From the IMG/VR virus record IMGVR_UViG_3300034018_000235, positions 1 to 21,472 of that record: a stretch of 21,472 bases of DNA; one strand, given 5' to 3'. The notes under the pieces were generated by a model. It did no database searches. It was given only the letters and a program-made list of their open reading frames with translations, and had not been told where the DNA came from. The first letter of the stretch is position 1. Each line of letters opens with the position of its first letter. This DNA comes from a virus. Below, piece by piece: positions 3,569-19,336 of the stretch. The position numbers and the translations under genes are program-made.

Positions 3569-3714
3569 TTCTTCTTGGCCGTCTTGGCCGAAGCCTTGAA
3601 TGCAGCCGCAGTCGGAGCGCCCTTGGTGCCGGGCTTCCGCATCTTTTCGCCTGATCCGGCTTTGATACGGGCTTTCTTGGCGTGGATCGCTGCGTACAGT
3701 CCTGATTTAGCCAT
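3565..3714 (-). CDS. Small Lys-rich phage protein (DUF5872-like)
   Basis: This 49-codon gene starts at the ATG at 3714 and reads MAKSGLYAAIHAKKARIKAG, then S-G-E-K-M-R-K-P-G-x-K-G-A-P-T, and ends in a Lys run (AKTAKKK). The pattern L-Y-x-x-I-H-A-K-[KR]-x-R-I-x-A-G-S-G-E-x-M-R-x-x-G-x-K-G-A-P-T is a recurrent small phage protein, which I associate with DUF5872. The stop overlaps the DUF6321 start (ATGA), and the start overlaps the HNH gene by 8 nt. The high positive charge suggests DNA or RNA binding, but no direct evidence is visible. It is short enough to be missed by length cut-offs. Confidence 0.8.
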   Translation of the reverse strand: MAKSGLYAAIHAKKARIKAGSGEKMRKPGTKGAPTAAAFKASAKTAKKK

Positions 3715-4213
3715 TTTTCATAAACCTCACATCATTGCCTTCCTCGTCTTGCATCCAGCCTGCCACGGCGCGGCAAAACATTAGAAACTGCTCGCCTGTC
3801 ATCGACGATTTCATGCTGTTCACGGCCTTGCACACAAGAACTGTGTTCTCAACCGTGTAACCGATTGAATTGTCCACGCGCTCAACAGACACAGAAAATA
3901 AGCTGTTGGGTTGCAGTTCCATTTGTAACCCAGAATAGCAGCAAATTCCACCCTGAGCGTTCCACATGTCAACAAGATCAGACGCGGTTAGGCTGAACTC
4001 ATTTTGCCTTTTCCGCGCGTTGGTTCGACAAGACACGAGAAAAGTCGGCACCCTACCCTCGAACGTGCTGTATTTCTTGGCTCGAGATTTTTCGTTGCCT
4101 TCCTTGCAGCAAGACTTGCACCACGAGTGCAAACCATCAGAGGTCTGATGGTGCTTGAAGAAGAAGACAACAGACTGCTCCCTCTTGCACTTGTAGCACG
4201 TCTTGGTGTTCAT
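3707..4213 (-). CDS. HNH-type endonuclease with N-terminal zinc finger
   Basis: The 168-residue protein has an N-terminal zinc-binding pair (C6-x2-C9 with C32-x2-C35), followed by a basic segment and an HNH-like core: G-G-I-C-C-Y-S-G (residues 88-95), V-E-R-V-D-N-S-I-G-Y-T (110-120) and N-T-V-L-V-C-K-A-V-N-S-M-K (123-135). This is the arrangement of phage HNH endonucleases related to the homing type. The ATG at 4213 is preferred over longer in-frame starts because it forms a TAATG overlap with the upstream microgene. It sits inside a run of conserved tiny genes and its codons look more AT-rich than theirs, so it is probably a mobile insertion. Whether it still cuts DNA is unknown. Confidence 0.8.
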   Translation of the reverse strand: MNTKTCYKCKREQSVVFFFKHHQTSDGLHSWCKSCCKEGNEKSRAKKYSTFEGRVPTFLVSCRTNARKRQNEFSLTASDLVDMWNAQGGICCYSGLQMELQPNSLFSVSVERVDNSIGYTVENTVLVCKAVNSMKSSMTGEQFLMFCRAVAGWMQDEEGNDVRFMKNG

Positions 4214-4308
4214 TACTTCTTTCCCTTCATCATGCACTTGCCCATAGCCTTGCACTTGGCAGGGTTCGGGCAGCCTTTGCACGGGGTGAACTTCACTGGC
4301 TTTTTCAT
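4213..4308 (-). CDS. Cys-rich microprotein (CKGCPxPAxC type)
   Basis: This 31-residue gene reads [20 protein letters not shown] and then [11 protein letters not shown]. Four cysteines (10, 13, 19, 25) among many lysines suggest a small metal-binding knuckle, though that is inference. The F-T-P-C-K-G-C-P-x-P-A-x-C pattern recurs in marine phages close to the terminase. The junctions support it: ATGA with the gene upstream and TAATG with the HNH gene downstream. The function is unknown. Confidence 0.75.
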
Positions 4309-4436
4309 TTCTTCTTCGCCTTTCCTGCTTTGCTGAGAGCAATGGCAATCGCCTGCTTTTGCGGCTTGCCGGATTTCATTTCCGTGCGGATGTTAGCAGA
4401 AATCGTCTTGGCAGACGAACCTTTTTTGAGTGGCAT
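4305..4436 (-). CDS. Small basic phage protein (DUF6496-like)
   Basis: The 43-residue gene reads [20 protein letters not shown], followed by [15 protein letters not shown] and a Lys-rich end. The motif KKGSSxKTISxNIxTEMxxGKPxKQAxAIAL is a frequent phage and bacterial small protein that I associate with DUF6496. The sequence suggests two amphipathic helices with a strongly basic tail. It follows the large terminase gene after about 40 nt that hold nothing recognisable, and it overlaps the next microgene by ATGA. The role is unknown. Confidence 0.8.
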
Positions 4437-9038: not shown

Positions 9039-9445
9039 TTCTTACCTTCCATTTGATCTGTGGCCCATTTTGCAAAGGCCGATTGTTCGCTGGGCGACAT
9101 CCGCCGCCAAAGCGCGCCGACAAGACGCTTGATCTGCCGAGAAGCAAACAGCGCATGACCACCGCTCATGCCGCCAAGCCTGTCAACAGCGGCAAGAGCA
9201 TAGCATTCAAGCTCGGATGGGTTCGCAGTCTCAGCCCAGAACCTTGCGTCATCGCGGGCAGTGCCGTCAATGAGCGGCAGAAGCGGCAGACCAGCCGCGC
9301 GGATGTTCAGCCAATCATAGGCAGCCCATGCAACAGCCTCGGCGTCTTGCTCGGCCAGCGTGTCAAGATAGACAACCGCCTGCGAAACGATATGCGCTGG
9401 GCGTGCAGGCCGAACAGGCGCGGGGAAATCAGGATCGTGGGTCAT
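9035..9445 (-). CDS. Conserved hypothetical phage protein
   Basis: The 136-residue protein has a Pro-rich N-terminus (residues 1-17), a helical middle with A-V-A-W-A-A-Y-D-W-L (about 37-46), and an Ala-rich C-terminus ending with R-R-M-S-P-S-E-Q-S-A-F-A-K-W-A-T-D-Q-M. No catalytic motif is visible. It sits between the HTH regulator and the DUF3987 protein with 4-nt ATGA overlaps on both sides, so all three are probably made together. A partner role for the ATPase is possible but unproven. Confidence 0.7.
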   Translation of the reverse strand: MTHDPDFPAPVRPARPAHIVSQAVVYLDTLAEQDAEAVAWAAYDWLNIRAAGLPLLPLIDGTARDDARFWAETANPSELECYALAAVDRLGGMSGGHALFASRQIKRLVGALWRRMSPSEQSAFAKWATDQMEGKK

Positions 9446-9618
9446 GCGTCACGCGGCGAAAGATAAAGGGATAGCGCCTCTATCGTCCTCAATGTCGGGT
9501 TGGTGTTCTTGCCGTCGCGGATCGCGGTCAGCGTGTTTCGGTGAACACCCGTCGCGTCGGCTACTACATTTAGCTTCCTGTCATGCAGAAGGCCCTTGAT
9601 CTGGTCTAGCGTCATCAT
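9442..9618 (-). CDS. Small XRE-like HTH regulator
   Basis: The 58-residue protein is little more than a helix-turn-helix: L-N-V-V-A-D-A-T-G-V-H-R-N-T-L-T-A-I-R-D-G (residues about 16-36), followed by N-P-T-L-R-T-I-E-A-L-S-L-Y-L, as in Cro/CI-type XRE proteins. The ATG pair at 9618/9615 is chosen because GAGGAG stands 9 nt upstream; a longer frame to 9672 would run over the promoter region. As first gene of the leftward operon, next to the palindrome at 9653-9686, it may regulate its own promoter and the divergent recombination operon. No dimerisation or cleavage domain is present. Confidence 0.82.
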   Translation of the reverse strand: MMTLDQIKGLLHDRKLNVVADATGVHRNTLTAIRDGKNTNPTLRTIEALSLYLSPRDA

Positions 9619-9652
9619 CTGAAAAAACTCCTCGTTTGTGCGCCTATGCCCT

Positions 9653-9686
9653 CTTGACATACTCCCGCGCACAATGCAATGTCAAG
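9653..9686. promoter_or_regulatory. Divergent promoter/operator palindrome
   Basis: CTTGACAT (9653-9660) and ATGTCAAG (9679-9686) form a perfect 8-bp inverted repeat with an 18-nt spacer. Each arm contains TTGACA, the sigma-70 -35 consensus, one facing right and one facing left. On the minus strand TATGTC follows the -35 after 18 nt as a fair -10; on the plus strand the -10 (CAATGT) is poor. The two promoters would overlap fully, so only one could be occupied at a time. An HTH gene lies immediately to the left. Confidence 0.6.
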
Positions 9687-9700
9687 TCACCGGGTTGAGA

Positions 9701-9732
9701 GCCTGCCCCGGTCAGGCGAGGCACAAGGTGCC
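9701..9732 (+). promoter_or_regulatory. Two short hairpins in the leader of the recombination operon
   Basis: GCCTG (9701-9705) pairs with CAGGC (9713-9717) and GGCAC (9720-9724) with GTGCC (9728-9732), giving two 5-bp hairpins in tandem before the ribosome binding site GAAAGGA of the gene at 9753. They could stabilise the transcript or influence translation. Stems this short also occur by chance. Confidence 0.3.
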
Positions 9733-9752
9733 AAACATGAAAGGAACGATCC

Positions 9753-10544
9753 ATGTCAATCATGGAGTTAGCACGCAAGCCGGTTGACCGGCCTGTCATT
9801 GTGACAGTTTGCGGCGATGCTGGGAGGGGCAAGACAAGCCTCGCAGCGGCATTTCCCAAGCCGATCTTCATTCGCGCAGAAGATGGGATGCAAGCCATCC
9901 CGGCAGACAAGCGACCTGATGCTTTTCCGCTTTTGCAAAGCGCATCGCAGCTTTGGGAGCAAATCACGGCTGTGATCCACGAGCCGCACGACTACCAGAC
10001 GCTGGTGATCGACAGCGTGACCGCCTTGGAGCGGTTGTTCGTGGCGGATGTTCTGGCGCAAGACCCGAAGGCCAAGAGCATCAACCAAGCCCTTGGCGGA
10101 TACGGCGCTGGCACGGCTGCGGTGTCGGCTATGCACCAGCGGGTTCGCAAGGGTGCTGGGCTGGCAAATGAAAAGCGCGGGATGCACGTTGTCTTCGTGG
10201 CGCACGCTGATGTGGAAACGCTGAAGCTGCCCGACGTTGACGACTACATGCGCTGGACCCTGCGCCTGCCGCCTAAATCGCAGCCGCCTTACACCGACGA
10301 TGTGGATGTTGTCGGGTTCCTGCGGCTTGTGACCTACACCAAGGGCGAGGACGGCGACCGCAAGAAGGCGATCAGCACGGGCGATCTGGAAATGGTCTGC
10401 CATGCTACGGCTGCCAACGTCTCGAAGAACCGCTACGGCATCACCGATCCGCTGGATTACCGCATCGGGGAAAACCCGCTGGCCAAAGTCATCCCGTCGC
10501 TTGGCGGGGCAAAATTTAACACCAATGAAGAAGGAGCCGAATGA
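9753..10544 (+). CDS. RecA-like ATPase, Sak4-type recombinase candidate
   Basis: The 263-residue protein has a Walker A motif GDAGRGKTS at residues 21-29 and a Walker B strand TLVIDSVT at 83-90, and lacks other domains. Length and layout fit the AAA_24/Sak4-like phage NTPases, single-domain RecA relatives that support single-strand annealing. The next genes encode a DUF669-like ssDNA-binding protein and a YqaJ exonuclease, the usual partners. The start is supported by GAAAGGA 7 nt upstream. A role limited to NTP-driven DNA handling without annealing cannot be excluded. It heads the rightward operon and is probably controlled from 9653-9686. Confidence 0.85.
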   Translation: MSIMELARKPVDRPVIVTVCGDAGRGKTSLAAAFPKPIFIRAEDGMQAIPADKRPDAFPLLQSASQLWEQITAVIHEPHDYQTLVIDSVTALERLFVADVLAQDPKAKSINQALGGYGAGTAAVSAMHQRVRKGAGLANEKRGMHVVFVAHADVETLKLPDVDDYMRWTLRLPPKSQPPYTDDVDVVGFLRLVTYTKGEDGDRKKAISTGDLEMVCHATAANVSKNRYGITDPLDYRIGENPLAKVIPSLGGAKFNTNEEGAE

Positions 10545-11182
10545 TGGGCTTTTGGGACTTGAGCGACGGCGAGACAGCCGCAAACACCGGCACCGAATAT
10601 GAGGTGCCTTCGGGCAACATTGAACCGATCCCGGCTGGATCGTCAGTGCTGGCTATGATTGACGAATGCAAGTGGGAGATGAAGCCCACCGGCGAGGAGT
10701 TTATCTCGGCACGCTGGACAGTGCTTGCGCCGGAGGAATACAAAAACCGCAAGGTGTTTCACAAGCTGTGGGTTTTGGACATGGACCCCAGCGCCAAGGA
10801 CGAAGCGTCTGGCATCAAGAAGCGCGACAAAGCCCGCAAGATGCTGGCAGCCATCGACGCCAACGCAGGCGGCAAGCTGACCGCAAAGCCGGGACGCCCG
10901 ACCAACGATGATCTCTTGAGCCTGACCAACAAGCCGATGGTTGCAAGCATGATGATCTGGTCAATGCCAGACACGCGCAACGGCGGCATGATGCACGGCA
11001 ACTGGGTGTCAGCGGTTGCTTCAAAGGGCGCGAAGGACATCTATGTCGCAGAAGCAAAGCCCTTGCCCGCAGCAGGTGCTGCACCGGCGCAGCGCGATGA
11101 TTTCGGCACAGGCGGTGGCGGCTATGCCAAGCCCGGCTTGGTCGATGATGACATCCCATTTGCCCCGGCTTGGTTGATCTAA
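10541..11182 (+). CDS. DUF669-like ssDNA-binding protein
   Basis: The 213-residue protein has an OB-like N-terminal half, with strands around residues 27-80 including I-D-E-C-K-W and I-S-A-R-W-T-V-L-A-P-E-E-Y. A flexible Ala/Pro/Gly-rich linker follows (about 172-200), and the end reads DDDIPFAPAWLI (202-213). The acidic DDDIPF patch resembles the tip by which SSBs recruit partner proteins, though here six residues follow it. The gene overlaps the ATPase gene by ATGA. AGGAG lies 4 nt before the first ATG and 7 nt before the second (10544), so the protein may start one residue later. The DUF669 assignment is from pattern and context. Confidence 0.82.
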   Translation: MMGFWDLSDGETAANTGTEYEVPSGNIEPIPAGSSVLAMIDECKWEMKPTGEEFISARWTVLAPEEYKNRKVFHKLWVLDMDPSAKDEASGIKKRDKARKMLAAIDANAGGKLTAKPGRPTNDDLLSLTNKPMVASMMIWSMPDTRNGGMMHGNWVSAVASKGAKDIYVAEAKPLPAAGAAPAQRDDFGTGGGGYAKPGLVDDDIPFAPAWLI

Positions 11183-18934: not shown

Positions 18935-19336
18935 TCATTCACACCAGGATTGTTTCGCATCGCCCTTGTAGGGACGAGCCAGGCCGGCAGAGATCAGGCT
19001 TTCAGCTAGGCTCTTGTGGTCTAGAAAGATGGTCCCCAGCACCCGGCCACCGTACTTGTCCCACTTCAAGATCTTGACATCGACCTCAAGCGCATTCGCA
19101 ACCGCGTCTTTTGTAAAGGCGCTGGCTTTCTTAGCCAAAGCTGCTTCCGCATCGCATTGAGCGCGAGGTGCCTTTTCGGGCGTGTCGATGCCGATGACCC
19201 TGATTGAGAGTTTGGGCGGCAGGGGCGACGGAAGAAAATCCACCGCAATCTCCACGGTATCGCCGTCAATGATGCGGGTGATCTCATAAGCATGAGCAGG
19301 CGCAGCCGTCAGCAGGAGCAGGGACAGCCACTTCAT
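18935..19336 (-). CDS. Secreted thermonuclease (SNase family)
   Basis: The 133-residue protein starts with a signal peptide (M-K-W-L-S-L-L-L-L-T-A-A-P-A-H-A, likely cleaved after residue 16). The SNase fold follows: I-D-G-D-T (residues 23-27), I-R-V-I-G-I-D-T-P-E (45-54, R46, D51, E54) and D-K-Y-G-G-R (93-98, R98). These correspond to the metal-binding acids and two catalytic arginines of staphylococcal nuclease. It is expected to degrade DNA in the periplasm or outside the cell. It lies directly upstream of the endolysin gene and overlaps the next gene by ATGA. Degradation of released host DNA or of superinfecting DNA are possible roles. Confidence 0.92.
   Translation of the reverse strand: MKWLSLLLLTAAPAHAYEITRIIDGDTVEIAVDFLPSPLPPKLSIRVIGIDTPEKAPRAQCDAEAALAKKASAFTKDAVANALEVDVKILKWDKYGGRVLGTIFLDHKSLAESLISAGLARPYKGDAKQSWCE

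Follow-up and report, generated by a model that had tools for sequence, protein, structure and literature searches.

A conserved palindrome between divergent phage operons as a probable pair of interlocked promoters, with a covarying leader at the predicted start of the Sak4 message

Divergent transcription from overlapping promoter elements is known from the bidirectional promoters of Warman et al. (PMC12825309), in which pseudo-symmetric DNA supports both directions from one shared -10 element and the start sites fall beside or within that element. Five such promoters tested in E. coli exhibit no competition between directions at basal activity, with competition appearing once one direction is strongly activated (PMC12825309). 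At the level of RNA, the gene 32 operator of phage T4 is a 5' pseudoknot of ~28 nt, the proposed nucleation site for gp32 in autogenous translational repression (PMC535899). The STAXI motif, which is repeated two to three times, likewise places a pseudoknot by genes for ssDNA-binding and other DNA-handling proteins (PMC2864571). Finally, phage Sak4-SSB modules have a sak4 gene that adjoins an ssb gene, and in phage HK620 the cognate SSB stimulates Sak4; the passages of that source drawn on here describe neither a leader RNA nor an interlocked promoter (PMC5928155), unlike the locus that we report.

The window analyzed in this study is one 21,472-base virus record (IMG/VR IMGVR_UViG_3300034018_000235), compared with records of relatives that may be fragments. 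Two operons diverge from a 134-bp intergenic region located between an HTH gene and a gene for a Sak4-like ATPase (Table 1). The leftward operon encodes, in order, a 58-aa HTH protein, a 136-aa protein without known family and a DUF3987 primase, while the rightward operon encodes a Sak4-like AAA_24 ATPase, an SSB, a YqaJ/RecE-like exonuclease and a DEAD-type helicase. Matches to phrog and Pfam families agree with a first-pass annotation of this DNA in placing an HTH gene at the head of the leftward operon and a recombination ATPase at the head of the rightward one. Family assignments place replication, recombination and packaging genes in both operons, and relatives of the terminase include those of Sulfitobacter and Bradyrhizobium phages. 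Two further open reading frames were noted by eye on the minus strand: one near the terminase genes that resembles an HNH-type homing endonuclease (3707-4348) and one with an apparent signal peptide and nuclease-like sequence (18935-19336).

Table 1. Coordinates of genes and of observed or predicted elements at the divergent intergenic region
Feature	Position	Strand	Basis or match
Cro/C1-type HTH regulator gene, 58 aa, first of leftward operon	9442..9618	-	phrog_18104, PF13443
Palindrome CTTGACAT-N18-ATGTCAAG, holding both putative promoters	9653..9686		sequence; conserved span
Putative rightward -35, TTGACA	9654..9659	+	35 bp before first base of S1; conserved position
Putative leftward -10, GTATGT, spacer 17 (alternative TATGTC, spacer 18)	9657..9662	-	weak here; relatives better than chance
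Candidate HTH-protein binding site, GCA-N3-TGC	9669..9677		enriched in intergenic regions of relatives
Putative rightward -10, CAATGT, spacer 17	9677..9682	+	TANTGT conserved in relatives; weak by E. coli consensus
Putative leftward -35, TTGACA	9680..9685	-	sequence; conserved at 32-33 bp span
Leader S1 5' strand, ACCGGG; first base is the predicted mRNA start	9689..9694	+	
Leader S2 5' strand, GCCTG	9701..9705	+	
Leader S1 3' strand, CCCGGT	9707..9712	+	
Leader S2 3' strand, CAGGC	9713..9717	+	
Small hairpin C, GGCAC-AAG-GTGCC	9720..9732	+	stem changes in relatives, complementarity kept
Likely ribosome-binding site, GAAAGGAA	9739..9746	+	sequence; position before ATG 9753
Sak4-like AAA_24 ATPase, first gene of rightward operon	9753..10544	+	phrog_124, PF13479
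Phage SSB, second gene of rightward operon	10541..11182	+	phrog_9002

As first annotated, the intergenic region contains a perfect 8-bp inverted repeat with an 18-nt spacer (CTTGACAT at 9653-9660 and ATGTCAAG at 9679-9686) that places TTGACA on both strands, and this site is the only one of its kind in the record. The bare 8-bp inverted repeat, taken alone, is nothing unusual; 16 such repeats with spacers of 0-30 nt occur in the window versus 15.4 +/- 4.3 in shuffles, and the probability that the 134-bp region holds at least one by chance is P=0.036. For TTGACA and TGTCAA lying 10-45 bp apart in that region we obtain P=0.00055 in a post-hoc test picked after the site had been seen. Scored against the consensus of E. 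coli, the rightward -10 CAATGT matches at two of six positions with a spacer of 17, and the leftward -10 is either GTATGT (one of six, spacer 17) or TATGTC (three of six, spacer 18). Because both -10 hexamers are weak, a simple consensus scan reports no sigma-70 promoter at the palindrome. The early description of each -35 as lying beside the -10 of the other promoter needs correcting in one detail, since the two overlap by three bases. The locus resembles the promoters of Warman et al. in its pseudo-symmetric DNA, predicted divergent transcription and overlapping elements, but differs from them in having two separate -10 elements, each overlapping the opposite -35, in place of a shared one, and in predicted start sites that are ~39 bp apart. 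A second 8-bp inverted repeat, TTGTGCGC-N23-GCGCACAA (9636-9643 and 9667-9674), overlaps the leftward promoter, and the relative L043 carries TGCATCTTGC-N19-GCAAGATGCA at the matching position.

Homologues of the HTH protein and of the ATPase, together with loci found by pattern scans, provided 296 usable upstream regions, 61 of which are less than 70% identical to one another and make up the set used for counting the span. In 20 of these 61 regions TTGAC...GTCAA covers 32 or 33 bp end to end (200 shuffle rounds gave a mean of 0.015 and a maximum of 1), and in three further regions it covers 35. The 32-33 bp span was first noticed in a subset, and the excess is far beyond the effect of that choice; the representatives share descent, the counts are not independent trials, and all of the evidence is comparative. 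The exact pair is absent from 35 of the 61 regions, and in some of these the arms are symmetric but of another sequence (TTTAC, TTGCA), more in keeping with a protein site than with a -35. Across these relatives, conservation of the inverted repeat settles that the site is more than a chance occurrence.

The conserved distance has a simple geometry, in which a promoter spacer of 17 gives a span of 32 and a spacer of 18 a span of 33. Each -10 ends in TGT, complementary to the ACA that ends the opposite -35, and the outer distance is fixed at 32-33 bp because the inner three bases of an arm also end the opposite -10. In the rightward -10, compared across 25 distinct elements, position 1 is T in 17, position 2 is A in 23 and position 6 is T in 24, giving TANTGT; the mean match of this -10, 2.88 versus 1.83 for a null with inner bases shuffled, is reached by none of 500 shuffles. 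In the leftward -10, position 2 is A in 18 of the 25, with a mean match of 2.24 versus 1.92 for the null (P=0.014). The final G and T of a -10 are partly set by the arm, and the independent signal in these values is that of the first positions. Additionally, the Vibrio phages L259 and L262 have a perfect TTGACA-N17-TATAAT before the orthologous gene, which supports the assignment of the rightward promoter. As in a sigma-70-type divergent pair, both strands carry a -35 hexamer placed one promoter spacer away from a -10. The conserved span, both -10 elements being above chance, and the location of the rightward -35, in most diverged lineages, at 35-36 bp before the leader RNA described below all uphold the initial call of two overlapping divergent promoters. 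The palindrome is probably a conserved pair of interlocked divergent promoters of the sigma-70 type, with a structured leader at the predicted rightward start.

It is conceivable that only the rightward promoter is real, with the leftward TTGACA being a relic or a chance match in this phage and the HTH operon starting elsewhere. In the clade to which the window belongs, the leftward -10 lacks the conserved A and is the poorest of those compared, and the second arm is missing in some relatives that do have a divergent gene (L065, L069, L161). We consider this unlikely, however, as the span is conserved in 20 of the 61 regions and the leftward -10 is above chance overall. Equally doubtful in our view is that the palindrome is primarily a protein operator, with a dimeric regulator on both arms and the -35-like sequence being secondary. 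Several relatives have symmetric arms that do not match the consensus (ACTTTAC/GTAAAGT in L008-L010, TATTGCACA/TGTGCAATA in L235 and TATTGCAAAC/GTTTGCAATA in L252), the arms reach 9-11 bp in L107, L166, L178 and L240, and the residue of the recognition helix before RNT tends to track the arm class, with TTTAC and TTGCA classes in some clades. Arm class and residue nonetheless follow clades and thus represent few independent events, and own-arm matching is barely above permuted-arm matching (5.39 versus 5.13, P=0.04), making co-change beyond the shared -35 marginal. TTGACA arms are also kept where the regulator is RHH-like or a different HTH protein, and arm centres that are ~27 bp apart would be too distant for one small HTH dimer. 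The palindrome may still double as an operator alongside its promoter role, as the first-pass annotation proposed.

A lead for a site bound by the HTH protein is GCA-N3-TGC, which occurs 10 times in 13 representative intergenic regions versus 1.3 expected (maximum of 6 in 500 shuffles); this motif was picked by eye from the same 13 sequences, one of which (L060) has an RHH-like gene. Short proteins that appear ribbon-helix-helix-like by eye replace the divergent HTH gene next to this promoter region in L022-L027, L058-L060, L062, L109, L161, L166, L178 and L198. A different Cro-like HTH protein is the regulator in L139, L229, L240 and L244, and in the Vibrio phages L257, L259 and L262 an HTH ORF that lacks an annotation points away from the Sak4 gene on its upstream side. 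We also considered whether symmetry of the arms tracks the HTH regulator and rejected this idea, as RHH-like loci show symmetric (L166, L178, L198) and asymmetric arms alike.

Downstream of the palindrome, the plus strand from 9689 reads ACCGGG-TTGAGA-GCCTG-C-CCCGGT-CAGGC, a 29-nt core in which the strands of two helices, S1 and S2, are interleaved. Two bases past the S2 3' strand is a small hairpin (hairpin C), which is followed by the ribosome-binding site. Some candidate helix pair is found in 65 of 86 distinct leaders, and 55 leaders score at least 27, a value reached by 0 of 1300 dinucleotide shuffles of those 65. A score of 27 is also reached at three other places in tiles of the window, in coding DNA, so the helix score alone is no proof and the case rests on covariation. 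With the helices of 31 distinct cores parsed to pair, 99% of pair cells are standard versus 77% (maximum 82%) in a permutation control in which the 3' strands were dealt anew. A MAFFT alignment of 29 sequences gives a covariation score of 0.545 versus 0.175 (0 of 500), and when the partners are shifted by 1-3 columns pairing falls to 22-54%; MAFFT misplaces S1 where loop 1 is longer, such that S1 counts from this alignment are conservative. Two pattern scans of all viral contigs returned 57 stretches, 50 of them 30-37 nt upstream of a Sak4 gene (49 identified by protein match, plus L285, which lies at a contig end and shares the start codon context) and the remainder in unrelated contexts. A covariance model (R1) finds one strong copy per related record. 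Rfam covariance models, STAXI included, gave no match at E up to 5 for 9600-9800, and none at gathering score in 18 sources. The leader RNA is apparently undescribed, being absent from Rfam and from the open-licence papers searched.

Calculated energies of S1 alone and S2 alone are similar, and minimum-energy folding alone does not reveal the structure (z -1.0) because it cannot draw both helices together. A classical H-type pseudoknot with no nucleotides between S1' and S2' is sterically unlikely; the two 3' strands may instead stack as one continuous strand in the manner of a kissing loop, or the helices may alternate. With regard to a 5'-terminal pseudoknot of the gene 32 type, both helices covary and lie at the predicted 5' end, where they may form together or in turn. 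The leader, at the predicted 5' end and upstream of a ribosome-binding site, recalls the gene 32 operator of T4 and RB69, whose pseudoknot precedes the ribosome-binding site of an ssDNA-binding protein gene, and its 29-nt core is close in size to that ~28-nt pseudoknot (PMC535899). The pairing topology differs, however, with no loop before S2', and the UUAAA/UAAA repeats of gene 32 are absent from 9718-9752, where the small hairpin is found instead. Sak4 comes first and SSB second in this operon, and the likeness to gene 32 is one of placement. In contrast to the repeated STAXI motif, the leader is present once per record.

Relatives without the leader still keep Sak4 and SSB, and the leader is therefore dispensable in some hosts; the genome collection contributed one distant relative that lacks the leader (L253). 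Hairpin C or a remnant of it (CCAAGGAGCC, CCCAATGAGG) overlaps the likely Shine-Dalgarno sequence in L108, L111, L214, L217 and L256, an overlap suggesting that hairpin C may have begun as a Shine-Dalgarno-masking stem. Two other candidate roles were rejected: an attenuator or terminator, as the hairpins are not followed by a U-run, and an upstream ORF from the ATG at 9737, as this ATG is not conserved. We find it improbable that the covarying leader functions at the level of single-stranded DNA, as a replication-origin hairpin would, rather than as RNA. The leader does sit between replication and recombination operons, and STAXI motifs have been discussed in like terms (PMC2864571), but its fixed distance after a promoter and its location 30-37 nt before the same gene argue for a transcript, as do three G-T/T-G cells and no A-C cells in the paired columns, small numbers that favor RNA of the plus strand.

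The reading as RNA also ties the leader to the promoter. With the first base of S1 taken as +1, 28 of 36 representatives have their best -35-like hexamer beginning at -35 or -36; among the remaining eight, five have a TTGCA element at -35 that is passed over by the consensus score, and in the last three the hexamer starts at -37 or -38. Given this fixed distance, the predicted 5' end of the Sak4 mRNA is the first base of S1 (9689), and the message would open with the structure.

Simultaneous occupancy of both fully overlapping promoters is unlikely, and polymerase would use one direction at a time. The first-pass annotation went further, holding that the geometry forces mutually exclusive use of the promoters and yields a simple two-state switch; the first of these statements is at odds with the published promoters that lack competition at basal activity (PMC12825309). 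A switch in which overlapping promoters and the HTH protein set up mutually exclusive, heritable expression states is very improbable, even with full promoter overlap and a regulator gene heading the leftward operon, because no lysogeny module is seen (no integrase, PF00589, in 14 related records and no resolvase, PF00239, in 10, records that may be fragments) and competition at basal activity is not seen in the bidirectional promoters that have been tested, while the gene families on either side, of replication, recombination and packaging, suggest lytic functions and the leftward -10 is weak in this window.

We propose instead that each arm of the palindrome would serve as the -35 of one promoter, with its inner three bases also ending the -10 of the other. 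The rightward promoter would drive the Sak4-SSB-exonuclease-helicase operon, with the mRNA starting at the first base of the structured leader, and the leftward promoter, presumably the weaker of the two in this phage, would drive the regulator-primase operon. The HTH protein may repress through sites between and beside the -35 elements. The leader in turn may govern how well the Sak4/SSB message is translated or how stable it is, most likely through feedback by the ssDNA-binding proteins that the operon itself encodes, as for T4 gene 32; alternatively, it may stabilize the 5' end of the mRNA. That SSB stimulates Sak4 in HK620 (PMC5928155) makes shared control of the Sak4/SSB pair plausible. 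Our more tentative suggestion, which we regard as possible but somewhat against the odds, is that the Sak4 leader represents a new class of 5'-terminal regulatory RNA through which SSB or Sak4 would control its own translation, placed at the start site of one of the two interlocked promoters and with a divergent regulator that has been repeatedly exchanged between families. Control at this locus appears richer than the on/off switch first proposed.

If these assignments hold, a cassette of 32-33 bp would serve two divergent operons, with one set of three bases ending both a -10 and the opposite -35. The locus also provides a natural series in which HTH, RHH-like and other Cro-type regulators have been placed over one promoter core. 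The leader, found in 55 of 86 distinct Sak4 leaders across a large and mostly uncultured group of phages, is a candidate for post-transcriptional control of Sak4/SSB modules, a role that simple reporters can test.
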